14,693 nucleotides of DNA from Parachlorella kessleri (lineage: Eukaryota > Chlorophyta > Trebouxiophyceae > Chlorellales > Chlorellaceae): assembly GCA_001598975.1 (NCBI GenBank), contig BBXU01001676.1, positions 1 through 14,693 on the forward strand. The letters run 5' to 3'. Below are positions 1-14,630 of the stretch, piece by piece. The notes under the pieces are model-generated. The model was not told the DNA's origin and made no database searches. It was given only the letters and a program-made list of their open reading frames with translations. Within the stretch, counting starts at the first letter, position 1; each line of letters starts with the position of its first letter. Both the position numbers and the translations under genes were made by a program.

Positions 1-3000
1 GGGGGAGGGGGCAGGGCATGACTAATGCACCTGCCCCTGCCATGCCACCTGGCAGGACGACAGGCAAAGCATGGGCAGGCGCAGACACAATGACAGCCAC
101 ACAGGTGGCTGCTCTGTCTGACAGGCAAGCCAGCCCCGGCCTGTCCTACAGCCATCAGCTTGAAACGTACCCGACCCAGTCTACCTTGCTGGCGAGCTGA
201 CCCCCACCCGGCTGCTCGCCAGCCTGGTTGCACCTCCATACACCAAACAGTCCATACACCAAACGGTCTATACACCAAGTCACGCCGTGCCTGACCGCCC
301 TACTCACCACCCGCAGTCGCCCCCTGCCCTCCTTGGGGCCGCTCCCCGACCTGTTGCACCTTGCCAACAAAGGAAGACACGTTATACTTGGCCTCGGACC
401 GACCCACTCACCGCCCGCAGCCGCCCGCTGCCCTCCTTGCCGATGACCCCCAGCCCGATCGTGTCCTCTCCGTCTATGAACTCGTCCTCCGCCTGGTTGA
501 AGTTCATACGGTTGGCCGCCTTCTTCAAGTCTGTAAGGCCAAACCGCTCCTGCACAAGCCAGACGGCAGAAGTGCCCGGACGCTTCTTCTCTTCTACCTC
601 AGTGAGAACTACGCGCGCGCCAACCCCACCTCACAAAGCACCCCGCAGTGTCCAACTCCCATAACCTTCCACACCCACCCACCACCTACCCACTGACCAC
701 CCATGCAGGTTCAGGCTAGGTTTTCTGATTCTTGGGCTAGGGTTTGAAGTTAGGGTAACCACAGATCAACGTCCCACCCCCACCTTCATCTTGCGGTACC
801 GCTTGCCGCCGCGCCGCTTTTTGGCCTCCGCGTCCGGCGCCGGCAGCACCTTGGCCGTCTTGGCGGGCGGCGGCTCCTGCCACTTCTCCACCTTCTTCAC
901 CATCTCCTCCTTCATGCGCACACCCGCGCCGCCGCTGGGGTCCTGCATGCATGCACATGCATGCTTGGAGAGTGTTGTGCCAGCACAAGGCAAGACTCTG
1001 GAGTTAAGACGTCCACCAATCGGACCACCTCCTCCTTCAGGCGCACGCCCGCGCCGCCGCTGAGGTCCTGCATGCACGCACATGTAGCAAGCGACCCAAT
1101 GGCACCCGGCCACATGTGCTGCCAGTGCTAGGTTCTTTCGTAGATCGCCCCGCGCTGAGCTTGCTGCCCCTTTCCCTGTGTGTTTCCTGTGGACGTCAGC
1201 CCCTGCCCTCCCTGTGCCCCACTCACTGGCGCAGGCTCTTCAAAACATACTCTCTTCTGTCACCTGCACCTGCCAGTTGCATCCTCTCTATGAGCTATAA
1301 GGCTGTCATGAGAACAATTTGCAATCTCACAAGGTAACTCCTGCCCGCCCAGGCGCCACCACTGACTGCCTGCCCGGCAGCCTGCCCACCAGGCGGCAGC
1401 ACGCCATGTCCGCATGTGGCCTATCACATGTATCGAACTGCGCGTCGCAACAAATTAAAGCGACGCGGGGGCGCTTAGATGACATTTGCTTCTCTTTACT
1501 GCTTTGCGGCAACCCACCCGCAGACAAGCCAAGTGGGCGTAGCAGGACTTGAGCCTACAAGCGCCTTGCACCCACCATAAACACACCAAACGTCACCACA
1601 CCCCCGCCCACCTGCCCGTAGGCATCGATACGCGCCAGCAGCGTGCACTTCGCGCCCACCAGCCTCGCCGCCTTGGAGCGCAGGGCCGGCGGCGTCTGCT
1701 GGATGATGTCGGAGCCGAAGATGAAGCCCTGGTGGGGCTGGGCGGCGGTGGAGGAGAAGCCGGCCAGGGTCTTGCGCTTGGCGCCCAGCACCTGCAGCGC
1801 AAAGCGTGGCAGAGCATGCAGTCAGGAGAACGAGCGCCGGCTCCGACGATACTTCGGCAAACCATAGCCCTGCTGGGGCGTGCGGCGAGTGGAGAGCGGC
1901 CTTGTCAGGGCTGGTTTGTTTCACGCCCAGCACTGCGCAACCACAGCATGCACAGCTTGAACAGGAAGGAGGAGGACCTTGGCGCCCAACACCCGCACAG
2001 CATGCAGAGCGGGGCGTGTGGCATGTGCGTCAGCATCTTCAATAACATAGCATGCTAGCGGGCAGGGAGGAGGAGATACCGTCAGACGGACTTAAAACAC
2101 CCGCTACACACCTCCTGAAAGGCTGAATAGGCCTCAAGGCGACCCTATAAGCCCTTCTAATAGCATTCTTCCAACTTTCCCTAGGCCCCCTGTACCGTGC
2201 TAGCCGGACACCTTTTACGGGCTTGGTAGCCAGCCCCTGGTGGCCGTCCCGAGCCTTCTTCACCCCCACTTCCCCTCTTGAACTTGCTCCCTGACCACCC
2301 CCGCTCCTCTATAACCCCACGCAAGGAACTCCCGCCTCCTTTCCGTGCCACCCGCCTCCCACCTGCACATTGCACGCCGGCATCTTGGACAGGTTGAGCA
2401 GCCCGCCCGCCACGCCCATAAGCTGCGCCGCGATCTCGGTGCCCACCGCCGCCGACAGGTTGGGCGCGATGCGGTCCATCTTCTGCTGCACCAGGCGCAG
2501 AATGAGAGCCTTGTCCTCCTCCAGCTGCTGCGCCAGCTGGCAGGCCTCCAGCACCTGCCTGCAGGCAGGGAACGGATGAAGCAGCCAATGTGTGCTCCCG
2601 TGCCACCTCCTCAGGACGCCCACCCAGCTGCCTCAACTCCGCCCCTGACATGAGGGTAGGCCTAGCCACCACCCCTGCGCACAGCCTTTTGGCTTCTTTC
2701 TGGGCTCCGGGTGCACCCTCCGACTCACCTTCTTCAGTAAGCAGGGAAAAGATACTGGCTCACTTCCACCACAGCGAGCACCCACCTCCTTCCTGCTGAG
2801 CGGCCTGCCGCTGGTGATGATGGCTGTGACTATGTAACGAGCAAGACTGGTGCAGCCACCATACAGCAAAGCAGCAACTCGTGGACCCACACCCGCCCAC
2901 CTTAGGTTCTCGTCGCTGAGTGGCCTGCCGCTGGTTGTCGTGGCCGTGACTGTGACAACCATGACTGACGCGGGCGGCAGCAGTCGATCCAGGTCTACCA

Positions 3001-4346
3001 GCGTCACATCCATCTCATTACCTGCGGGCAAATCCCAATGCGATCTCGGGACACCGAGTGTGACCAGCAAGTGGTATACCCCATGAGGAAAGGAAGCGGT
3101 ACCCATGTGGGTAACCAAAATTGATGTATTTATGTTTGTGTCGGCAAGTGCAAGAGTCCTAGCAGTTGCCGTCCGGCATCAAGCTGATAGCTCAACGGCT
3201 GCCACCCCTGAAGGCCCCTCTCTGTGCTCACATAGGGCCTGCACACGCCTTTAGTGCTAATCTGAGGGGTGCGCCACCGGGCACTCCAGCTCAATTACCC
3301 TCAATAGGTTCCAGGCGAATCGCCCCCATGCTCATCCCCTGCGCTCACCTATGGCCTGCACCACCTTGGCGTATTCAAGGGGGTTCCGCACTAGGGATTC
3401 CAGCTCAGGAAATTTGGTGCGGTACTTGTCCCTGATGAAGTTGTACACAATCCCTATCTCATTATCGATGTCCACTGCCAGCTGATTACAGTCCACGAGC
3501 AGCCTGCACCATGGATAGAAGAAAGGCCGTGGCGACACTTGAAAGCTCAGCAGCTTGCAGCGGAACCAGAGGGGTTTCCGTGCAGCGTGAGGAACTACAT
3601 GCGAGTGGGAAGCGTGGTTGGGAATGTAAGAGGCTGCAGTGCAGCTGACTTCAACAGAGTGAGAGTCGGGAGCAGCAACTGGCATTGTCGACCCCCCCCC
3701 CCCCCCTCACAACCCCCCATGCAGCAGGATGGCAAAATTGACCAGAATGCAAGACTTGCAGTGTAAGGTGAGCACTTGGCGGGCCCACTTTGCTCGGGAT
3801 GCGTTTCTCCACGTGGCGCCCCACTCCCTGTGCCTCCCACAACGGTTGCCTGCATGCTCTGTGTGCTGTACCACACACGCCCCAGTGCAGGCGTGCTCCC
3901 CTCCCTTACTTGTATGTGGGGTCCTCCTCTGTGGGCCCCGCCCAGGCCTGGCCCTCGCCGCCCGCCTCGGCGCCCTCCAGCGCCCTGCGTACCGCCTCCA
4001 TGATGGTCCTGTACCGCTCATTGCCGGCCAGGTGGGCCACCGCCTCCAGGTTGTCGTAGTTGAGGTTGTCCAGGTCATCACCCAGCATCTGCAGGACAAC
4101 ACCTGGGCACCTCCTTCGTCGAGCATCGGCCGTGACAGTCGCCACAATACTCACAGATGCTGCTTGAAGAAGCGAGGAGCCCTCAGCTAGTCGAGCTTAC
4201 TCCAGATATTCCCCCAAAACAACAACGCCCAGCCTTAGCCGCACCTCCTCATCCTGTTCCTCCTGCTGTTGCTGCTGGTCATCATCCTCCTCCACGTCTG
4301 ACAAGTCCTCCAAGTCTGCCAGGAAACTCTCTGCCAACGTAGCCAT
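1..4346 (-). CDS. PRPF31: Pre-mRNA splicing factor Prp31 (U4/U6 snRNP), 3'-partial
   Basis: Prp31 binds the U4 snRNA k-turn/15.5K particle through its Nop domain and bridges U4/U6 to U5 in the nuclear tri-snRNP. Exons on the minus strand, in gene order: 4245-4346, 3910-4088, 3503-3349, 3021-2901, 2558-2363, 1791-1612, 942-784, 549-412. All introns are GT-AG, every phase matches, and together they give 410 codons. The start ATG (4346) sits in ACCATGG and opens an acidic, Q-rich N-terminus (MATLAESFLADLEDLSD). Recognisable family blocks are LLVDCNQLAVDIDNEIG and FIRDKYRTKFPELESLV (about 95-135), NEMDVTLVDLD (about 147), the Nop core IAPNLS...NLSKMPACNVQ (about 212-251), LGAKRKTLAGFSS (about 253), KWQEPPPAKTAKVLPAP (about 330), the basic KKRRGGKRYRKMK (about 352-364) and ERFGLTDLKKAANRMNF (about 365). 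Human and plant proteins run about 85 residues further. I found no convincing next exon in 1-411, so the C-terminus is probably beyond the left edge. Five introns carry decayed copies of adjacent exon edges. Confidence 0.93.
209..334 (-). repeat. Echo of the Prp31 exon 8 3' edge and donor
   Basis: Direct tandem duplicate of 337-440. The duplicated unit includes the last roughly 26 nt of exon 8, its donor and about 90 nt of intron 8. Both ends align: the GGCTGCTC...TTGCACCT block (about 211-233) matches about 338-362, and the CTCACC-CCCGCAG-CTGCCCTCCTTG block (302-333) matches 406-438. Spacing is 104 nt at the splice site. The echo donor still reads G|GTGAGT in gene direction. The copy contains a 16-nt tandem repeat that the parent lacks. 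Confidence 0.75.
235..282. repeat. 16-nt tandem repeat, three units
   Basis: Three consecutive 16-nt units, TCCATACACCAAACAG, TCCATACACCAAACGG and a diverged TCTATACACCAAGTCA, lie inside the echo unit downstream of Prp31 exon 8. This is a local slippage product in non-coding DNA. Confidence 0.85.
1020..1090 (-). repeat. Echo of the Prp31 exon 7 acceptor and 5' edge
   Basis: A second copy of the start of exon 7 (acceptor context plus about 45 nt of exon) lies 125 nt upstream of the real exon in intron 6. By eye about 55 of 62 aligned bases agree. The echo has its own acceptor GCATGCAG and reads DLSGGAGVRLKEEV, where the real exon reads DPSGGAGVRMKEEM. Similarity fades after that, where the real exon continues into KWQEPPP. 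It is the least decayed echo in the window and probably the youngest. Confidence 0.9.
1921..2015 (-). repeat. Two echoes of the Prp31 exon 6 acceptor and 5' edge
   Basis: Exon 6 begins at 1791 with codons for VLGAKRKT. Two decayed copies of its first roughly 10-15 nt and its acceptor flank lie upstream in intron 5. One is around 1921-1955 (reads V-L-G-V-K, offset about 142) and the other around 1970-2015 (reads V-L-G-A-K, offset about 201). All three share a GCATGCA-type motif 15-30 nt before the exon start. Identity is limited to short blocks, so the alignment is moderate. Confidence 0.65.
2779..2845 (-). repeat. Echo of the Prp31 exon 4 3' edge and donor
   Basis: A decayed copy of the end of exon 4 lies 120 nt downstream in intron 4. 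The core GCTGAGYGGCCTGCCGCTGG (plus-strand sense) differs at one position. In gene direction the real exon reads VTVTATTTSGRPLSDENL and the echo reads IVTAIITSGRPLSRKE, with a 6-nt deletion. The echo keeps a plausible donor (GAG|GTGGGT) but in a different phase from the real one (AAG|GTGGGC), so using it would break the frame into exon 5. Confidence 0.85.
3215..3297 (-). repeat. Echo of the Prp31 exon 3 3' edge and donor
   Basis: A decayed copy of the last roughly 60 nt of exon 3 plus donor lies 123 nt downstream in intron 3. In gene direction both copies start with TGAGCTGGA and end with TGCAGGCC-TA-GTGAGC-CAG. The middle has diverged and holds in-frame stops. The echo donor is degraded (CTATGTGAGC against the real ATAG|GTGAGC). 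Flanking intron sequence on the far side also looks related, which fits a tandem duplication of about 120 nt. Confidence 0.75.
3692..3706. repeat. Poly-C tract in Prp31 intron 2
   Basis: An uninterrupted run of 15 C on the plus strand (poly-G in the transcript) in the middle of intron 2. Confidence 0.9.
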
Positions 4347-5118
4347 GGTGCACCACTACCTGTAGGAAGGCCACATAGCACACCATGAGGCACAGCGGCT
4401 CCTGTGCCTTGCGACTATGTACGCACGGCTGCCAGTGTTCCTGCTGGATAGAGACCACCCAGGCACCACCGGCAGGCGCTGCTGCAGCACCACAACTCCA
4501 AGAGAAACAGTGCTGACGCGAACGGAACGTTACGACTGCAAAACGCGGCAGTGCTGACTCTAGTATACCATGCACACTAGGAACTAGAGGTCAGCCACCT
4601 CCGCACCGTGGCGCGCACCCAGCGATGGACGGATGCTTAAGTGATGCTCCTGTCTGGATGCTTTGGACAACGCACAAGGAACAGCAGAAGTCCTGGTCCC
4701 GATCGCCTGCCAGAACAACAATATGATCCGATAGCACGACAGTTTACTTCGTGTAAGGTAAATGCGTAAGAAGGTGAAGGAGAGGAGAGCTTGGGGACAG
4801 GTTAGTCATGTGTACAGTATATGCAGTAAGGGGCGCTAAGGCGTAAGAAAAACGGAGGTAGCCTCCCCGCTTCCTAGACTCCGAGCTGCCTGCACATAGG
4901 ACAGATGATTCATTGCCTGAGGCCACACCTTTGACTCTTCCTTGGGTGCGGCCTCGTCGGGGTGCGGGCGCAGCGTAGTAGTGGTGTAGTAGTGGTGTAA
5001 GTGAGTTTGATGCAGTCCACATCCATCGTAAATACCATTGCAAAGGTGTATTTGCAAGCAGCGCTCTGGGCCGAGCTTCTTTGCAAGGACCGCCGCCATT
5101 TGGCAGCGCCGCGGACAG
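4347..5118. promoter_or_regulatory. Divergent intergenic region between Prp31 and the ankyrin-like gene
   Basis: About 770 nt separate the two start codons, so both promoters and 5' UTRs should lie here. I see no clear TATA box. On the Prp31 side the sequence just before the ATG reads CTTCCTACAG|GTAGTGG in gene direction, which resembles an acceptor, so a 5'-UTR intron is possible. A perfect 11-nt duplication (GTAGTAGTGGT twice) lies at 4975-4996. Minus-strand open frames at 4744-5043 and 4836-5174 show no recognisable domain. Confidence 0.5.
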
Positions 5119-7292
5119 ATGGAAACACCCGAAATAGTCATCCGGGCGTGGGGCAGTATTAATAGCCTCGACAACTCAGGGCAGCATTGCTTGCAGCGCT
5201 TTGCTCACTGCGTCGCGCAGAGCGGGGTGCAGCTCGGCCACCTGCTCGACTCTTCCGTGGCCCAGCTGCGAGCGCTGCTCTCTGCTGGGGCCGACGTGGC
5301 TTTGGCATCCCTGACTCCAGCTTGCAGCCCGCTAGATATTCTCGTGAAGGGCTTGCGGCGAGAGCTGGGGCCGCTCTGCGAGACCCCACCTCACTACCGG
5401 GAGCTGGCCAGGTGGGAGAAAGATGCAAACTATTTCTTTGTGTTAGAGTGCTGGTAGGGTACATCTTAAAAAAATATGGGGCCCCTTTTGTTAAGAATGC
5501 CCTATTTTGGAAGGGGGTATGCCAAGCCCACCCCAGGTACCTCCTTTCCGTCTAAGATTTAAGCGTACACTATTGCTGACGGGCTTCGTGCTTGCTGCTT
5601 ATTCCAACCCACCCACACCATCCTCACCTGGCCCGCCCAAGGCCGGGGATTGCTCCCCCCGCCGACCCCCCCCCCCCCCCCTCCCCCCCCCAGGAGTACC
5701 CATAGCTATTATGCAGGGCAGTTGTGCCAAGTCATCGTCCAATAATTTCTCTGAAAGCTGCGCCAAGTTCGTGCCTGCTGTGTGCAGAGTATTCATAGAG
5801 GCCGGCTGCAAGGTAGACTCGCCTGTGCCTGGGCACCCAGACGTGTACGTGCACACAGTCTCCGCATGGCTGTCCATGCTTTTGGGCGCCATACGTCTCG
5901 GCCAGGGCAGATATGGCGTGTGGCCCAGGGACCTCCACCCTAGCGCCCTGGAGCTGAGTGAGATCATGCTCCGAGCGGCAGCAGCAGAGCAGCCAGCGGG
6001 CCGGCCGGAGTTTCTTGATGTGGCTCTCGCAGTGGGCAGTCTGGAGTTGGTGCAGCTGGTGCTGGATGTGTTCCCCGGGGCACCGGCCTGGCTTGTGAGC
6101 CGGGAACACTGCCAGCCTGTGACCTGGGAGGCCAGCTCAGACCACTTTCTCGAAGGCCGCCGGCAGCGGGTGCAGTACACCCCCTTGGAGATGGCCTTGA
6201 AGCACTTTGCTGACGGGCTTGTGCAGCTGAAAGTCCCTGCTCCAGAGGTGAGCTTCGCGAGGCTTCACCATGCACTAAGGCGTTGGGCTTCCCCCGGGTG
6301 GCCTGCAGCGTCGCACTTCGCTGGCAGATTGCGTGACATGCCTGCAGGGTGTGCATATGTTGGACACTGTACCGCCCATCAGCTCCCCACTGACGGCAGG
6401 GACCAGGTTTTGTATGATATGTACTCTATGTTGTGGTGTTCATGAGGTCGGATTTGTGCATGCAGTGCTCCTGGGACGCGAAGCACGCCTTGCCGGTGCT
6501 CCACTTCTGCCGCCTGGCCCAGACCTTGTTGAAGGCTGGCTGCCCTGCCATCCCCAGGCTGAGCATTGCTAAGAAGCCTGCACGGTGCTTGGAGAGGACC
6601 CTCATGCCCAGCCAACTAGGGGAAGGCACAGTTGTTCGGTTGCCTGGGTGGGCACGGCAACCTCTCAGGTGTGTATGCCTCTTACAGTTGGTTTTCTTTG
6701 CAAGGCAGGGAGGCTTACTTAATGCAAGATGGCCTGCCTTGTGCTCCACTGTCATGGCAACTCATCAGAACAATCTCTCAGAATGAATGCGCATTTGAAA
6801 TACGTGAATGCTGCCAAGTTGCACTCATTCCAGCACCTACTGAGCCCTCCAATAATGCCCACCAGTGTTGTCTACACTAGTGCCTCCGTCTTCGTGCTTG
6901 CCGTTTGTTTCCCTACCCTCTGCTCTGCTACTTGACGCAGCTGCCGCCAGACAAACTGCTATCTGACCCTTTTTGTCATGTGCATTTCATCATGAATGGC
7001 TTTCCTGGACCTCTGGTGCAGGCAGCTGCTGCCGCTGGTGGTGAGAGATGCCAAGTGGTGCTTGGAGACACACACTGACTTCCCCCTAGACTTCCAGGAA
7101 GCAACGAAGACCCTGCTGCTCATCAACAGCCACCGAGGGTTAGGGCAGCACCGCAGCCAAACCGAGCTGCAGCTCAGCGCATGCCAGTCTGGTGGTATTT
7201 ACTTGCCAGAGCCCTTGCTACTCTACATTGTCAGCATGGCTGCGAATCCCTTGCCTCACTGTGTTCGGCAGTTGGTGGAATTCTCACTGTAG
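5119..7292 (+). CDS. Degenerate ankyrin-repeat-like protein
   Basis: Proposed exons: 5119-5411, 5788-6247, 6466-6668, 7022-7292. All are GT-AG with matching phases (2, 0, 2), giving 408 aa. The ATG at 5119 (METPEIV) is the first in frame. Ankyrin-like helices are visible: LRALLSAGADVALAS near residue 60; RELARVFIEAGCKVDSP, created by the exon 1/2 join; DVALAVGSLELVQLVLDVFP in exon 2; and LHFCRLAQTLLKAGCP in exon 3. The end of the protein has FQEATKTLLLINSHRG followed by LPEPLLLYIVSMAANPLP, a C-terminal pattern I associate with large green-algal ankyrin-like families. There are no catalytic motifs, and the function is unknown (probably protein binding). Exon 1 could instead end at TGCTG|GTAGGG (5453). 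I prefer the chosen donor because it completes an ankyrin helix. The repeats are too degenerate for a firm family call. Confidence 0.55.
5666..5691. repeat. Poly-C tract with one T, followed by AG
   Basis: Sixteen C, one T, nine C, then AG, inside intron 1 of the ankyrin-like gene. It resembles an extreme polypyrimidine tract with an acceptor at 5692-5693. That acceptor is out of phase with the preferred exon 1 donor. Confidence 0.85.
6944..7003 (+). repeat. Dispersed repeat, copy a (ankyrin gene intron 3)
   Basis: About 60 nt sharing ACTGCT-TCTGACCC, TGTCA-GTGCATTTC and AATGGCT blocks with 12357-12415. The intervening bases differ by a few substitutions and short indels. The two copies are more than 5 kb apart in different non-coding contexts, so this is an interspersed family rather than a local duplication. 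Confidence 0.75.
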
Positions 7293-7386
7293 ACAGGCTA
7301 GGTCCTGCTCCCCTCGTTTTGCAGTCGAGAAGTTAGCCTGGCGCTGGGTTTATCTTGGAAAGGCTCCCGATTGCAACATGCTTTTC

Positions 7387-7425
7387 AAGCACTGCTTTTA
7401 AGCACTGCTTTTAAGCACTGCTTTC
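7387..7425. repeat. 13-nt palindromic tandem repeat, three units
   Basis: Three head-to-tail units of AAGCACTGCTTTY with a partial fourth. Each unit contains the 11-nt inverted repeat AAGCA-C-TGCTT, so the array can form several alternative hairpins in the probable 3' UTR of the ankyrin-like gene. Confidence 0.9.
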
Positions 7426-7617
7426 AAGCAGTCAGTCGTCATGGCTCCAGCTCTGGAGCCGAAATGGGTTAAGGCTTACCATGTGACCAGTCAGACAGTA
7501 CAGTCCAATGCCATCTCCTCTCTGTTCGCACTACATGCCGTGGCATGCCAGCTGGAACCAGCTGTGCCTGCGCCCAAACAATCGGAGCAGGCGAAGCAGG
7601 GTGTCAAGGTTTCCATG

Positions 7618-7622
7618 TGTAA
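7618..7622 (+). terminator. Putative TGTAA poly(A) signal of the ankyrin-like gene
   Basis: TGTAA is the usual poly(A) signal in chlorophyte nuclear genes. This one lies 326 nt after the stop codon at 7292, before the next gene. The assignment rests on motif and position alone. Confidence 0.35.
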
Positions 7623-7844
7623 AGACAACAAGGTGCCTGTACGCAGACGACCTGCTACATACACGAAGAAAAAGAGCTTGTTGGGGACCACTTGATTTCT
7701 TACCACTCCGTGTTAGGAGCTTGATCAGTTTACTGTACGGACAGCTCCGCTTTCTTCCTTGTTCGTCCTCCTCTTAGTATCGCAAAGAGCGTCAGGCAAA
7801 TACAGACACCGCAAGCCTGGTGGTGGTGTCCTTGTGTGGGCGAG

Positions 7845-10800
7845 ATGTCCGTCAAGGAGCCGGTGCCAAGCGCCTGGGACCCAGCAGGTGATGCTATCTT
7901 GGTGTATTAGCTGGGCCCTGGTATGGACCGGCAAGTGCTGGGGGTGAGTGCAAGTGCCTGGTGCACTAGCTCCACTTAAGAGCTCCAGGTGCCGCTGAGG
8001 CTGTGAGGGGAGACTTCCAAGGCTTACTGCGACGACTCATCCTCCGCGTTGCCATATATAGAGTGACCCACGGAGCCTCCTGATGCAGGCCGTGCCCCGG
8101 CATCGCGATACTTGCAGATTACCGGCACACGTGTGAAGTATGTGGGTGAGTAGCACGTGCTGCTCACAACTGCGTTTGTTACCAGGCACCCGCATGGGCG
8201 ATTCAAGCAAGCTCCACCCAACTGTGGACTGTCTGGTGGGCTGTATGGCTGTATTGCTTTTTGCAACTGGCTGAGGCGAGGCACTGGCAGCCCAAGGCAC
8301 AGCCTTAGAATTGCGCTCCTCTGCGCAGGTCCAGGCAACGATGACAGGGATGCCGCCTCTGTGCGGTCAAACTACCCTGTGCCAAGCGACCTGCCCATTT
8401 TTTATTATGAAGTGGAAGTCGTGAACAAGGGCAGGTATGTCTTTACTCCATTCCAGGTTTAATTGTACAGCCGCTGGCTCTTTAAACTTCGGCGCGCTTG
8501 CTGGGAATGTTGCCCAGCTTTCCAGCCCGCAACACCTAGTGCGCTGGCCAGTGGTTGGAGCACATGGCTGGACAGAACAGGAGCGCGGCGGTAGGGGTTT
8601 GGGCAAGTCCAGGTGATGCAGGTGTCATGGTAGTATGACGACCGAAATCCATGCAGAATGCTGGTTTGGGAGCTTGACCGGCGGCGGCGTGGTGTCCACC
8701 GCAGGGACGGCTTTATTGGCATCGGCTTTGCTGTGAGGGATGTGAAGCTGGACCGGCTGCCGGGCTGGGAGCCCCACTCCTACGGTTACCACGGGGACGA
8801 CGGCCACGCCTTTTCCGGCCGGGGCACCGGCCGGCCGTACGGGCCCTGCTTTGGGACAGGCAAGCCTGCTGCGCTGCTGGGGCTGGGGTCAAAAGAGCCT
8901 CCAACCAAGCGCAGGCCAGAGGGATGATGACAGTTGCAGAGCCCAGGGCAGTCGATATACCAAATCGTATCTACATGAGGAACCTGGGTTTGACATGCAG
9001 ACGTATACACCTCGCCTGGGGGGGTCCTGAGACAGCAGGTCACAGCGTAGGCTGCATGGCAGCGCTCCACATCATCTCCTGGGAGCCGTGCCGACTGCGT
9101 GTGCCCCCTGCTGCTCGCAGGCGACTGGATTGGCGTGCTGTGGAACCGGGTGGAGGGCACAGTCAGCTTTAGTAAGCGTGGCTACGACCTGGGGGTGGCG
9201 TTTGAGGGGGTCCATGAGGAGCACCTCTACCCCATTGTGGGCTTCCGGACACCTGACGAGGAGGCGAGTGTGCCTGCCGTGTGCCCCAGGGCTGGCTGTT
9301 GGTGTGTTGTGGGGTGAGTGGCTGGGGGTGATTTAGGGTACTGGCATTTGTTGAGTGGGTTCGAGAGAGGCCAGCAGGCGGTGGGGCGATTTTGCCAGGT
9401 TGCGTAAGCGCACCAGGGCCTCCACCCCTGGAAGCATTCCCCTCCATGTCACCTGCATGTGCTTCCTGCCATACAAGCAGACAGTGGCCTGTTGCACAAG
9501 GCCGGCCGTGGCAACCTGGTGCCCATAATTCAATAAGCGCTGCCAAGCCTCCAGTGAGACTTTTATCAGCTGAGCCTGTTCGGCCTATCCGATGCAGATT
9601 GACGCCAACTTTGGCGTGGACCTGGCCCGCAAGCCCTTTAAAGCGGACATGGCCGCCATACGCAAGGAGGCGGAGCAGCGGCTGTACAGCCGGATACTCC
9701 ACCTGCAGCTGCCGGCCAGCAAGGTGGGTGGGTGGGTGGGTAGGTAGGGCACCCTTGCGGATCTGCCTGCCTGTTTGTCTCCCTGTGCCGACTTGGGCTG
9801 ACTTGGGCTATGGGGGAGGGGGGCGGCGGTTACTTCTCCAGCTAATCATGTGTAGTTTGCAGGTGTCAATCAGCAACAGGCTTCGTCTGCATGGCTTCTG
9901 AGCAACAACCCCTCATAAGCCTTGGTAGCAGGGCCGGGGCAGCCCGAATGCGTGTTGCCTTTGTCGCACAAGCAACCTGCCTTCCGCTGCCGCTGGTAGA
10001 CTTGCACTTGCTGGTGCAAAGGGATCACTGGGACCCTACGAGCCCTGCTGCTGCCCTGCACACCGGTGCTGCTGCGTTGTTGCGCACTGCAGGGCCAGAG
10101 TAGTGACCTGGTGGGGCAGCTGGTGTTTGACTACCTCTGCCACTACGGCCACTGGGAGACGGCAGCGGCGGTGGGGCGGGATGTGCTGGGGGGCGCGGTG
10201 GAGGTGCGTTTCTGTTGGCAGTGCCGCCAGACGCAGCAGGGCTGCGCACGGCGCTGCAGTACTGCACTGTGCTAGTGTGGGGGGCCCTTGCTGAGTGATT
10301 GCCGAGCCCTGTAGCTTATCAAGGCTGGTGGGGTGGGTTGTGTGGCAGTCTGGCCCGTGGTGTGGATACCCAGAGCATAGCTGCATAGAACCCTGTCAGC
10401 CCAGTATACCCGTACCTCCTCTCTGATCCCATTACTCGCCACCCTTAATTAATATGGTCACCGTAGACGATGGATACGTGCGTGCTTGGCAGGTCTCGCA
10501 GCAGGCTGTGGAGGAGATGCAGAAGCGGCAGCAGGTGTCGGGGTGCGTGCTGAGGGGTGACATTGATGGTGCGGTGGCGCTGGCGCGGGAGGTGGCGCCG
10601 GGATCGCTGGAGGCGCACCCCGCAGTGCTCTTCAGGCTGCAGTGTCAGAAGTTTATGGAGCTGGTGAGTGGCAGGGGCTGTGCTTCTTAACCTGGCTGCT
10701 GTTCCCAGGCAGCTGAAGGGCAGGCGGGCAGTGAGGTAACGTGGGGCCAGCCAAAGTGATTTAGAGACTGGGCAGTCAGTCCATGATGCCAGCTGTACTG

Positions 10801-12216
10801 GTTATGTTGGCATCTGCCCGCCGTGACAGTGCCTTTGGCTATGTGATGGGAAGTATGAGTACGACAGGGGATGCGGTCCCTGAGTTGCCTCTCTCAGAGA
10901 GTTTGCTACCCCATGGGGTGTAGGTCACCGCCAAGCGCATTGAAGCGGCCATGGGCTGCATGGCTGCCTGTAGGTAGTCGCCCAACCCCAGTCGGCCGGC
11001 CCCCTTCCCAGCGCCTTGCCCTGTGCCCCATGCGCTGCAGATAAATGCCAAGCAGGACGAAGCGGCCACGGCCTACGGCCGCACGGTGCTGGTGCCCGCC
11101 TGCTCGAACGAGGCCGAGAAGGAATTGCTAGAGGATGCTTTGTCCTTGTTTGCTTACGAGGGTAGGTCACTCACAAGGGGATGCGAGTGGCCTAGCTACC
11201 AGGCGCTGTGGGGATGCATGGCATGGCAGAGCATGCACAGGGAGGGGCTAGGTTGCAGCTGTGGGGGAAGGCTGGAGGTGCTGCGTTGTCGGCCGGAAGG
11301 TGGAGAGAAGGCTGGCTTGGCCCCGTGCTCTGGGCAGCTTCGGGAAGGCTTTGAGCTACAGCGGACTCACCATGTAGCTTGCCCATCTCGCAGCCTGCCC
11401 CCTTCCTCCCACTTCACACCCCTCCGTGGCCGGGCCATCAACTTGTCTCATGCATGCCCTGCTACCATCCCCTGTGCCTGGATGCTAAGGGCCCGGCCTG
11501 CCCACCCCGCCCCATCTCTGCACCTCCTCTTCTGACCGGCCCTGCAGCGCGCATGTGTGTATGTGTGGTGCAGACCCAGCTGCCAGCCCCTGTGGCCACC
11601 TGCTGTCGGCAGCCGCGCGGGCTGAGCTGGCAGCTGAAGTGAACAAGGCCATCCTTGCAATGAAGGGCAGGCGGGAGGACTCGGCGCTCGAGTGCCTCTA
11701 CAAGCAGGTACTGCGAGCTAGGTACCCCTGCTGCACTGCTGGTACTGTAGGGTACTGCCTTGGGCGAGCTTGCATGCGCGTGGTCCTCAACAGAGATGAG
11801 GGATGCGCTGCGAGCTAGGGCAGGAGCTGCTGACTTCTCTCCGAAAAAACTCACCACTGGTGGCTACTGCGGTCCAGAGTTAAGGGAAGTCTCTGTCAGA
11901 ATCTGGTGTGTATGAGAGGCTTTTGGATGTGTGCAAGAGGGAAAGGCGGCAGTACAATCAAGGTCTGGCCATGTTACATTGTCAACCCATGCAGTGCAAA
12001 GCTGACGGGTGGCCAGGGGTGTGCGCTAGTCTGGATGCTGGATCTGGGGCTGCCCGTACATCTCACTCCAACGTGTCAGGCATGCAGTATTTGAGCCTCA
12101 ACAACTCCACTGCTGGCGTGCAGGCGGCAGCAGCCCACAAGGAGCTAGTGGCTCTAGGAGACCCAGCAGCCTCACTTGTGAACGTTGAGGATGTGATACA
12201 TACCAAACGAGACTGA
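7845..12216 (+). CDS. RANBPM: RanBPM/Gid1-like CTLH-complex subunit (SPRY-LisH-CTLH-CRA)
   Basis: Member of the RanBP9/RanBP10/Gid1 family, scaffold and adaptor subunits of the CTLH/GID E3 ubiquitin ligase in nucleus and cytosol. Eleven exons: 7845-7887, 8089-8145, 8329-8434, 8705-8859, 9121-9263, 9598-9723, 10093-10203, 10493-10663, 11041-11161, 11574-11707, 12124-12216. All phases match, giving 419 aa. Exon 1 encodes [14 protein letters not shown]. The SPRY domain runs from about 45 to 180, with [68 protein letters not shown] and [19 protein letters not shown]. LisH follows ([20 protein letters not shown], about 216-235), then CTLH (about 248-304, [19 protein letters not shown] and [12 protein letters not shown]). 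CRA follows (about 305-415, [21 protein letters not shown], then [13 protein letters not shown]). The protein ends [11 protein letters not shown]. Introns 4 and 5 use GC donors. It is compact and lacks the low-complexity insert of animal RanBP9. Confidence 0.92.
8858..8865 (+). other. GC donor of RanBPM intron 4 (GC-AG intron 8860-9120)
   Basis: The exon reads TTTGGGACAG|GCAAGC, and joining to CGCAG|GCGACTGG restores the family motif FGTG-DWIG in frame. There is no GT donor nearby that keeps the frame. AG|GCAAG is the strong consensus of GC-AG U2-type introns. Confidence 0.85.
9262..9269 (+). other. GC donor of RanBPM intron 5 (GC-AG intron 9264-9597)
   Basis: The exon reads GACGAGGAG|GCGAGT, and joining to GATGCAG|ATTGACGCC gives TPDEE-IDANFG, matching the RanBP9 pattern TPGEIVDANFG residue for residue. 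The nearest good GT donor (GG|GTGAGT at 9314) would add 50 nt and shift the frame. Confidence 0.8.
9724..9743. repeat. TGGG/TAGG simple repeat at the RanBPM intron 6 donor
   Basis: GTGGGTGGGTGGGTGGGTAG begins exactly at the donor of intron 6 (AAG|GTGGGT). The G-runs resemble a splice-enhancing or G-quadruplex-capable element. Confidence 0.8.
10905..10975 (+). repeat. Echo of the RanBPM exon 9 acceptor and 5' edge
   Basis: A decayed copy of the acceptor and start of exon 9 (real exon start 11041) lies 117 nt upstream in intron 8. Shared blocks include CCCCATG-G-TG-AG before the splice site, then GCCAAGC and GAAGCGGCCA within the exon. By eye about 70% of roughly 50 ungapped positions agree. 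The real exon reads [13 protein letters not shown]; the echo reads [11 protein letters not shown], then meets a stop. It shows that the Prp31 echo pattern extends to another gene. Confidence 0.8.
11711..11819 (+). repeat. Short direct repeat at the start of RanBPM intron 10
   Basis: CTGCGAGCTAGG at 11711-11722, starting three bases into the intron, recurs exactly at 11808-11819, and both are followed by a GCTGC a few bases on. The 97-nt spacing is similar to the exon-edge echoes, but the exon side is not clearly conserved. Confidence 0.5.
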
Positions 12217-12639: not shown

Positions 12640-14313
12640 ATGAGCCCTTACCGCCTAATTATGCGGCAGCCTGCCACTGGATTCTTCCAGTGTCCAATGC
12701 CAACTCCCATGACTCAGACATCCCCACCCCGGCGCGCATGGCTGGCAAGCACGAGCCATCGTCATCATTCGTCGGTAGGAAGGTTGCGACGTGCAGTCTG
12801 TAAAGAGCAGGCTGCAGTACAACCTTCAATAGTTGCGAAGGGCAGACAAGCTGGCCATGGTCCTGCCTGGAGAAGAGACAAGCCCAGGGCCGCAAGAACA
12901 TCACTAGTTGCCCAGTCCACAACAGTGAGTAGACCGGCCAGCAGGGGCTGACAATTCTGTATACCATACTGCAGTGTTGCGGAGTACGCCACCTGCGCTT
13001 GTCCCTTGACATTCAGTCCAGTGTGGCAGGGGTGTGCAGACCTATTGTTTAAAACCTCATCAAGCACTTGACTGGAATCCCTTCACTTCTTTCTTTCACT
13101 TTATGCTGTAGGTGCCGCTAACTGGCCTTGAACACCTAAACATCATTAACAAGGAGCTAGACCACCCTATGGGCAGGCTTCTAGTGCGGCCAGTCATGGC
13201 GGAGGATGTCAAGGCTGCGACAGTTGTGCTTACAAGAGCATTTGCTACTACTGGCTATCTACCACTTGGCGATGCGGGCCAGTATTGCAAGGACATGCTC
13301 GGGCAGCCGCCGCTAGGAATACTGCTGGTTGTAAGGCTGAGTCCTACCGGTAAGGCGCAGCTATTGCCTACCTGGGCATGTCTAGCAGGTGCTATTCTGG
13401 GCACTGCTTTTCGTAAGGGTGGCAGGTAGTGCGGACAGATAGTGAGAGGCAAGCTCTAATGATTGAGCTGGTTAAACAAATGCTCGTGAGCTTCGCCTTG
13501 TCTGTCACTCTTATACTCAGCTCTATTGTACTGTGAACCCTAAGCTGTGAGTTGCGTGAACCTGCCTTGCTTTGCGGCTCAGTCTATTGCTGCTCTTGCT
13601 GCCAGAACAAAAGGTCTGAATGTTGCTCCATATCATGCCTGTGGTGTTACCCTTGCTAGTGCAGATGCAAGCTTGCTGCCGGAAGGCCAGGAATCGAGGT
13701 TGATAGCCACAGTAGCGCTGTCGTTTGCACGGAGGACCCGCGAGGAGTTCCCTTCCTTGCAACCCCCCGACGATGCAGCCTACTTGTCGAACATGGCTGT
13801 AGACCCCGCTTTCCGACGGTGAGCAAGTGTGCCGCGGTCTTCTACTGTGTATTGGCAGAGGCACGGCCGCAGTATGCCAGCATGCCAGACTCCGTACATG
13901 ACTGGGAAGGGGTGGCCCCTGTAGCTTAGCTGCTTGATAATAGTACGGGTGACAGGTAGCGCGAGCAGGGAGTGTGAGCTGGGCTGTACTAGCAGGACTG
14001 GTGGAATGAGCCTGAGTCTTGCCTGAGTTTGCTTGTTATGTCGCAGCTCAAAGGAGGACAACCCTGGTAATGAAGCGTGTGCAGGCAGGGCATTGCCCGT
14101 CTCCTGCTGCAAGCGAGTGAAGAGCTCTGCGCGGCTCGAGGTTTCCGCGAAATCTATCTCCATGCCCGGCTAGGAGATGACCCCGCAGTGCAGCTGTATG
14201 AGTCAGCAGGCTACGCGCTGGTTGACAAGGATTCCTTCCTTGTGAAGCTGCGTGGCATTCAGCCTCGGTCTCTCATGAGTAAGGAAGTGGCACTGCAAGA
14301 GGCAGTGCACTAG
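12640..14313 (+). CDS. GNAT-family N-acetyltransferase, probably plastid-targeted
   Basis: Exons 12640-12924, 13112-13349, 13665-13818, 14085-14313; all are GT-AG with matching phases (0, 1, 2), giving 301 aa. The first 95 residues (exon 1) contain many S, R, A and T but only two acidic residues, as expected of a chloroplast transit peptide. The catalytic domain starts around residue 112 (GRLLVRPVMAEDVKAA). Motif A lies around 217-235 as YLSNMAVDPAFRRQGIARLL, with the acetyl-CoA-binding R-x-x-G-x-A spanning the exon 3/4 junction (R225, G228, A230). Motif B is PAVQLYESAGYALV. This is the layout of plant/algal plastid GNATs that acetylate protein N-termini or lysines; the exact substrate cannot be read from the sequence. 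The next upstream in-frame Met codons are alternatives within the leader. The exon 3 start was chosen because it restores phase and joins to the LLPEGQESR block. Confidence 0.85.
13414..13510 (+). repeat. GGTGGCAGGTAGTGC repeat, copy 1 (GNAT intron 2)
   Basis: First of several related copies. It aligns well with 14515-14630 through GGGTGGCAGGTAGTGC, ACAGA-GTGA, GAGCT-TGGTT, AAATG-TC and AGCTT-GCCT. Confidence 0.75.
13935..14045 (+). repeat. GGTGGCAGGTAGTGC repeat, copy 2 (GNAT intron 3)
   Basis: Diverged copy: GGGTGACAGGTAGCGC near its start and CTTGCCTGAGTTTG near its end, in the same order and spacing as the copy at 14515-14630. Confidence 0.7.
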
Positions 14314-14514
14314 TGAAGCCCTTCATGTCACGCCTTAGGATGGCGGCAGTCAGTGGTCTCCACTGAGCGATATGTCCTGGCTGCAGCAGGTGGCTTGGCT
14401 TGGTCACCTCCGCTTATGCCCTGTATCCTTTCCTGCTGTACCTCTATTTGGGGAAAACTGCAAGCATTATGAACAGAGAGGAGGTAGGGGTGAACTGGAC
14501 TGACAGGTTGCGGT

Positions 14515-14630
14515 TATTAGCATGGGTGGCAGGTAGTGCAAACAGAGCGTGACAGTCGAGCTGTGCTGACTGAGCCTGGTTGCCGAAATGTTCCTATAGC
14601 TTGCCTGAGTTCTGTTGTGGTAGGTTTTAA
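14515..14630 (+). repeat. GGTGGCAGGTAGTGC repeat, copy 3 (3' of GNAT)
   Basis: The copy that links the others. It shares the GGGTGGCAGGTAGTGC head with copy 1 and the CTTGCCTGAGTT tail with copy 2, in the same orientation. Confidence 0.8.

Follow-up and report, generated by a model that had tools for sequence, protein, structure and literature searches.

How intron sequence and new introns originate has long been asked, and recent cases that can be dated are few. Tandem duplication has been described in a review as the sole route of intron gain demonstrated in vivo (PMC3443670), and in the potato RdRp gene a tandem duplication over an intron-exon boundary made a new intron (PMC4974935); both papers cite earlier work on intragenic duplications, some of them creating introns. 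Repair-mediated duplication, through capture of nearby DNA, has left short and close copies, some with splice sites, in vertebrates (Pace et al. 2009, PMC2671141). Here we describe a series of exon-edge copies in the Prp31 gene of the alga Parachlorella kessleri, located on contig BBXU01001676.1 (GenBank assembly GCA_001598975.1), whose whole length of 14,693 nucleotides is referred to as the window. Five Prp31 introns contain a diverged direct copy, or echo, of an adjoining exon edge together with its splice site.

The gene occupies 412-4346 on the (-) strand and comprises eight exons (4346-4245, 4088-3910, 3503-3349, 3021-2901, 2558-2363, 1791-1612, 942-784, and 549-412), which join in frame in the model of a self-trained gene finder. 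Profile matches to the Pfam domains Nop and Prp31_C, and a match to a human Prp31 PDB chain (E 4.9e-113), identified the product as Prp31. The nearest protein found by protein search was "hypothetical protein N2152v2_011109 [Parachlorella kessleri]", here P0001. Every one of its residues 1-423 (of 509) is encoded exactly in the window, including the echo exon described below, and the C-terminal exons would fall beyond the contig start.

To detect echoes, positions 1-4400 of the window were scanned without gaps at offsets 40-400, which gave five direct repeats with a score of at least 14, compared with a mean of 0.02 and a maximum of 1 in 100 local dinucleotide shuffles. Gapped alignment of the 15 pairs of Prp31 exon edge and adjacent intron, each against 300 shuffled introns, showed that five pairs scored better than all 300 shuffles, whereas the other ten gave p values of 0.017-0.773, short of 0.01. 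The five belong to introns 3, 4, 5, 6, and 8, exactly those in which the initial annotation of this stretch had placed exon-edge copies, and they held against the shuffled-intron control that it had proposed. A structure-blind gapped scan of the whole window (score of at least 24, offsets between 60 and a few hundred) returned exactly these five Prp31 events, and none in one shuffle of the window. The exon-edge echoes in Prp31 are real.

All Prp31 echoes lie on the (-) strand. On the donor side, the edge of exon 8 (parent 391-450) recurs at 289-347 with a period of 103-104 and 50 of 56 positions identical, its echo GT being at 307. The exon 4 edge (2887-2967) recurs at 2769-2849 (period 118-120; 62/76 identical, about 82%; echo GT at 2785), and the exon 3 edge (3339-3407) at 3222-3293 (period 114-117; 51/68 identical, 75%; echo GT at 3231). 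On the acceptor side, the exon 6 edge (1725-1828) is found again at 1866-1971 (period 143; 78/100 identical; echo acceptor at 1932), and a second, weaker copy of it lies at 1978-2002, at an offset of 201 from its source at 1777-1801 (25 nt at 84%; in the ungapped scan 20 nt at 90%, score 15). The exon 7 edge (899-959) recurs at 1024-1084 with a period of 125 and 56 of 61 positions identical. This 92% is the best identity measured, above the roughly 89% initially reported. The distances reported at the same time were about right for exons 4, 6 (143 plus 201), 7, and 8, but not for exon 3, where 114-117 replaces 123.

The exon 7 echo is the one that may have given rise to an exon. A 39-nt segment within it, DLSGGAGVRLKEE (1029-1067, (-) strand), is preceded by AG and followed by GT, and is annotated as an exon in P0001, where DLSGGAGVRLKEE immediately precedes DPSGGAGVRMKEE. 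The annotated exons imply a candidate new intron of 86 nt between the echo exon and exon 7 (943-1028, (-) strand). In all seven other algal proteins aligned, taken from the 119 other matches listed and compared at the protein level only, a counterpart of DPSGGAGVRMKEE alone was found, the 13 residues of DLSGGAGVRLKEE being absent. The GT that follows the echo exon occupies the place of an ATG codon in the parent, and the methionine encoded there is retained in the aligned proteins except one (P0013). The echo exon was also predicted by the self-trained ab initio finder, which was run without RNA, and its annotation is therefore no proof of its use. The first P. kessleri annotation was itself produced with GeneMark-ES, and RNA libraries are reported with the draft genome of strain NIES-2152 (PMC4724957). 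We regard the exon 7 echo as a candidate intron gain, which would add a predicted 13-residue exon and a new 86-nt intron if spliced. The earlier suggestion that echoes occasionally create exons would have this annotated 39-nt exon as a candidate case.

The layout at exon 7 is that of the potato RdRp case, in which the 3' end of an intron was copied along with the 5' side of the exon that follows it, providing a second acceptor and, in combination with a cryptic donor, a new intron (PMC4974935). The potato case is a single event for which relatives were compared, whereas in Prp31 five junctions are affected, on both donor and acceptor sides, with one annotated (predicted) new intron. The kind of duplication is thus already known, and exon 7 is likely a new example of it.

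We then surveyed other parts of the genome (50.86 Mb in 1642 contigs, the window being one whole contig). The sample covered 0.4% of this one genome; loci L019 and L020 (pieces below 5 kb) and the small loci L001-L007 were left out. Coding models outside Prp31 came from the self-trained finder and have visible frame errors; they are supported by homology for the exons of one gene at locus L025, and by Pfam matches in parts of three other predicted proteins. The edge test over the sampled genes gave 16 echoes, of which Prp31 (15 edges) and the L025 gene (16 edges) had five each; the other 39 genes had six echoes in 474 edges, and 33 genes had none. When echoes were permuted over edges, 0 of 20,000 permutations reached the observed concentration (P at most 5e-5), a value that includes Prp31. 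Because Prp31 was chosen for its echoes, the fair evidence for clustering is the L025 gene, the only one of the two that was met blind, in a random stretch.

The exons of the L025 gene show homology to nine proteins, one listed in the search with Pfam PF07766, which we take to be a LETM1-like family. A tblastn search for this gene also touched three of the echoes (229-161, 476-441, and 3693-3655) at E values of 0.034-0.65, each weak singly. Dense tandem copies with spacings of 83, 98, 168, 267, and 435 fill L025:164-911, around exon 387-268 of the same gene. A blind scan over 20 loci found events in eight and none in 12, with 28 events in total, several of them in one L025 array, and 0 events in one shuffle per locus. 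At locus L022, a gene with a GPR1/FUN34/yaaH Pfam match contains a duplicated exon (8705-8816 and 8850-8955). In the ungapped core of this pair (8855-8924/8710-8779) the exon part differs at third codon positions only (7/20 vs 0/42). It resembles a genuine exon duplicate under constraint, and perhaps serves as an alternative exon.

The fate of the copies was examined through their splice sites, codons, and introns. The sense strand of the Prp31 stretch has 285 GT and 339 AG sites; ranked among the sites of their own type, the echo sites of exons 3 and 6 both fell in the 89th percentile, those of exons 8 and 4 in the 96th and 98th, and the exon 7 acceptor in the 99th, so the copied splice sites are still strong. 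The exon 8 echo donor even outscores its parent (6.01 vs 5.48). Over ten pairs, differences at codon positions 1, 2, and 3 amounted to 11/138, 15/137, and 28/137, and to 11/117, 15/116, and 21/117 without the L022 pair, a pattern consistent with the copy being free and the parent constrained. Summed over the exon 4, 7, and 8 pairs the differences were 2/37, 5/37, and 7/38, which are small numbers. Complete introns with an echo had a median length of 512 nt (n=11), compared with 279 nt (n=249) for the others (one-sided P 1e-4); the exon 8 intron, which runs off the contig, is outside the 11, and an echo at locus L028 was not flagged. These lengths agree with the proposed lengthening of introns by echoes, but the comparison is confounded by the greater room in long introns.

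From sequence comparison, we consider it probable that the echoes arose by recurrent short local duplication, tandem or near-tandem, in this alga. Short pieces of DNA, with alignments of about 40-110 nt, would have been repeatedly duplicated in direct orientation, mostly 76-152 nt apart, and the probable source would be error-prone break repair or replication slippage. Copies that cross a junction would be tolerated, the old splice site staying in use and the new copy being intronic. The intron-side copy would then drift freely, and such pairs would remain recognisable because constraint persists on the parent's exon side. Introns would be expected to lengthen, to acquire strong decoy splice sites and, once, at exon 7, to yield the predicted exon and intron.

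The initial annotation had proposed more specifically that a junction-spanning unit of 100-140 nt was tandemly duplicated, its intron side decaying afterwards. Recurrent local duplication in five introns upholds part of this proposal, but a clean tandem unit was not seen for every event. At exon 6, the alignment covers 104 nt of the 143-nt unit. At exon 8, the right flank shows the remainder of the unit, a continuation of the duplicate (209-278, (-) strand) being matched there by the spacer 336-396; 0 of 200 shuffles were as good, the exact placement being read by eye. This continuation is interrupted by a 16-nt repeat array, TCCATACACCAAACAG (235-278, 2.8 copies), apparently a later expansion within the duplicate. 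Contiguous tandem units were also found at L025 (period 83) and L012 (period 105). No remainder of a unit was found at exons 3 and 4, where decay, at their lower identities of 75% and about 82%, could have erased it. Exon 7, however, has at 92% identity a 64-nt spacer between its copies (960-1023, (-) strand), which matches neither flank (p 0.81, 0.255), and this makes a clean tandem origin for every case quite improbable.

The exon 7 spacer and other observations also weigh against recurrent tandem or near-tandem duplication. The 33-nt spacer of the L025 pair 326-262/228-164 (p 0.60, 0.99) and the 75-nt spacer of the L022 pair 8855-8924/8710-8779 (p 0.595, 0.105) likewise match neither flank, and erasure by decay is hard to believe in these three spaced pairs. 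Since such well-preserved pairs have spacers with no tandem trace, they require either that the copy was made at a distance or that an insertion followed later. Two of the three spacers were searched, and each was found solely at its own place. Moreover, echoes are unevenly spread over genes, which would not be expected of a uniform process. Pooled identity of the intron parts (270/337) was not clearly below that of the exon parts (625/766), although free decay on both sides should lower it; this comparison is soft because local alignment trims. Finally, the duplications are inferred from similarity alone. With three spacers matching neither flank and other pairs contiguous, both tandem and spaced duplications seem to be present in the set. 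The spaced pairs suit the events described by Pace et al. (PMC2671141), which include closely linked short copies, breakpoint filler, and duplicated splice sites and partial exons, and the spacers, which measure 64 nt at exon 7, 33 nt at L025, and 75 nt at L022, are what a short copy near its source with filler would leave. That study differs in being based on a human set with insertions of at least 50 bp and proximal donors within 5 kb, partial exon/intron sequence making up 4 of 824 donors.

Whether the echoes could instead be duplicated exons under selection, supplying exons or splice sites for alternative use, was considered in view of the strong echo splice sites, the in-frame exon 7 echo with both splice sites within an annotated protein, and the third-position pattern of the L022 pair. 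We find this unlikely for the series. Second codon positions were not clearly spared in the exon 4, 7, and 8 pairs (5/37), though numbers are small; the echoes span just part of an exon; and if splicing used the echo donor of exon 4 or exon 8, the message would retain a further 115 or 104 nt of intron. An assembly artefact, or chance similarity between GC-rich stretches, is hardly tenable. GC-rich sequence and the common splice consensus do raise the background, and high scores were not in excess in an early version of the edge test, but the relevant introns were missing from that version. For the five Prp31 pairs we regard chance and artefact as refuted by the shuffled, non-adjacent, and inverted controls; in addition, copies and parents are not identical, and a protein encoded on a separate contig of greater length (2,035,142 bases) contains the exon 7 echo.

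A further explanation is that splice junctions themselves are targeted, for example because exon ends are inserted by way of an intermediate involving RNA or the spliceosome, or because breaks occur at RNA-DNA hybrids. All five window events from the blind scan are located on exon edges. Of 13 events that involve noncoding DNA, eight touch an exon (40% expected, P 0.04), and purely noncoding events numbered five against 9.2 expected (P 0.03). Junction-spanning events alone were not significant, however, since random placement of the 17 strong events gave 4.4 expected against seven observed (P 0.12), and three of the eight exon-touching events come from the window and were the reason it was examined. 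Purely noncoding duplications of like size do occur. Local direct 11-mer pairs at offsets 60-200 comprised 26 noncoding-noncoding, 18 exon-noncoding, and 10 exon-exon pairs, compared with 14 inverted pairs of any class. The copies also carry intron sequence, and therefore spliced RNA was not their source. The preference for junctions is weak, and we do not claim targeting, because a junction-crossing duplication puts exon sequence into an intron and stays recognisable longer through its constrained exon side, so that slower loss of similarity accounts for the tilt. Targeting is accordingly a doubtful explanation, with little probability.

Tentatively, the concentration of echoes raises the possibility that certain genes of this alga are in a burst of junction-crossing duplication, with about one-third of their exon edges duplicated and most genes having none. 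If so, introns would grow from copies of their own exons, occasionally releasing a new exon and a new intron, and Prp31, which encodes a splicing factor, would show intron growth and gain in progress. Were whole genes to have one-third of their edges copied, RNA reads with strain comparison within one culturable alga would be a direct route to asking how splicing passes over the decoys, at what point an echo turns into an exon, and why some genes are more susceptible than others. Among the literature matches listed (titles and abstract starts, with subscription papers mostly outside), no report described such an echo series within one gene or in Parachlorella, and in the literature searched, with the same restriction, no paper combined Parachlorella, tandem duplication, and introns. 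The gene-wise series is thus a variant without description among those matches.

Elsewhere in the window, a predicted neighbour gene with SPRY and CTLH domains lies at 5966-11161 on the (+) strand, and its last predicted exon has an acceptor-edge echo at 10909-10983 (parent 11026-11097, (+) strand, period 117). Positions 7379-7430 hold an array of about four 13-nt units, TGCTTTTAAGCAC. Near the contig end, at 13413-14567, direct repeats occur with spacings of 530 (13413-13448/13943-13978) and 577 (13938-13990/14515-14567).
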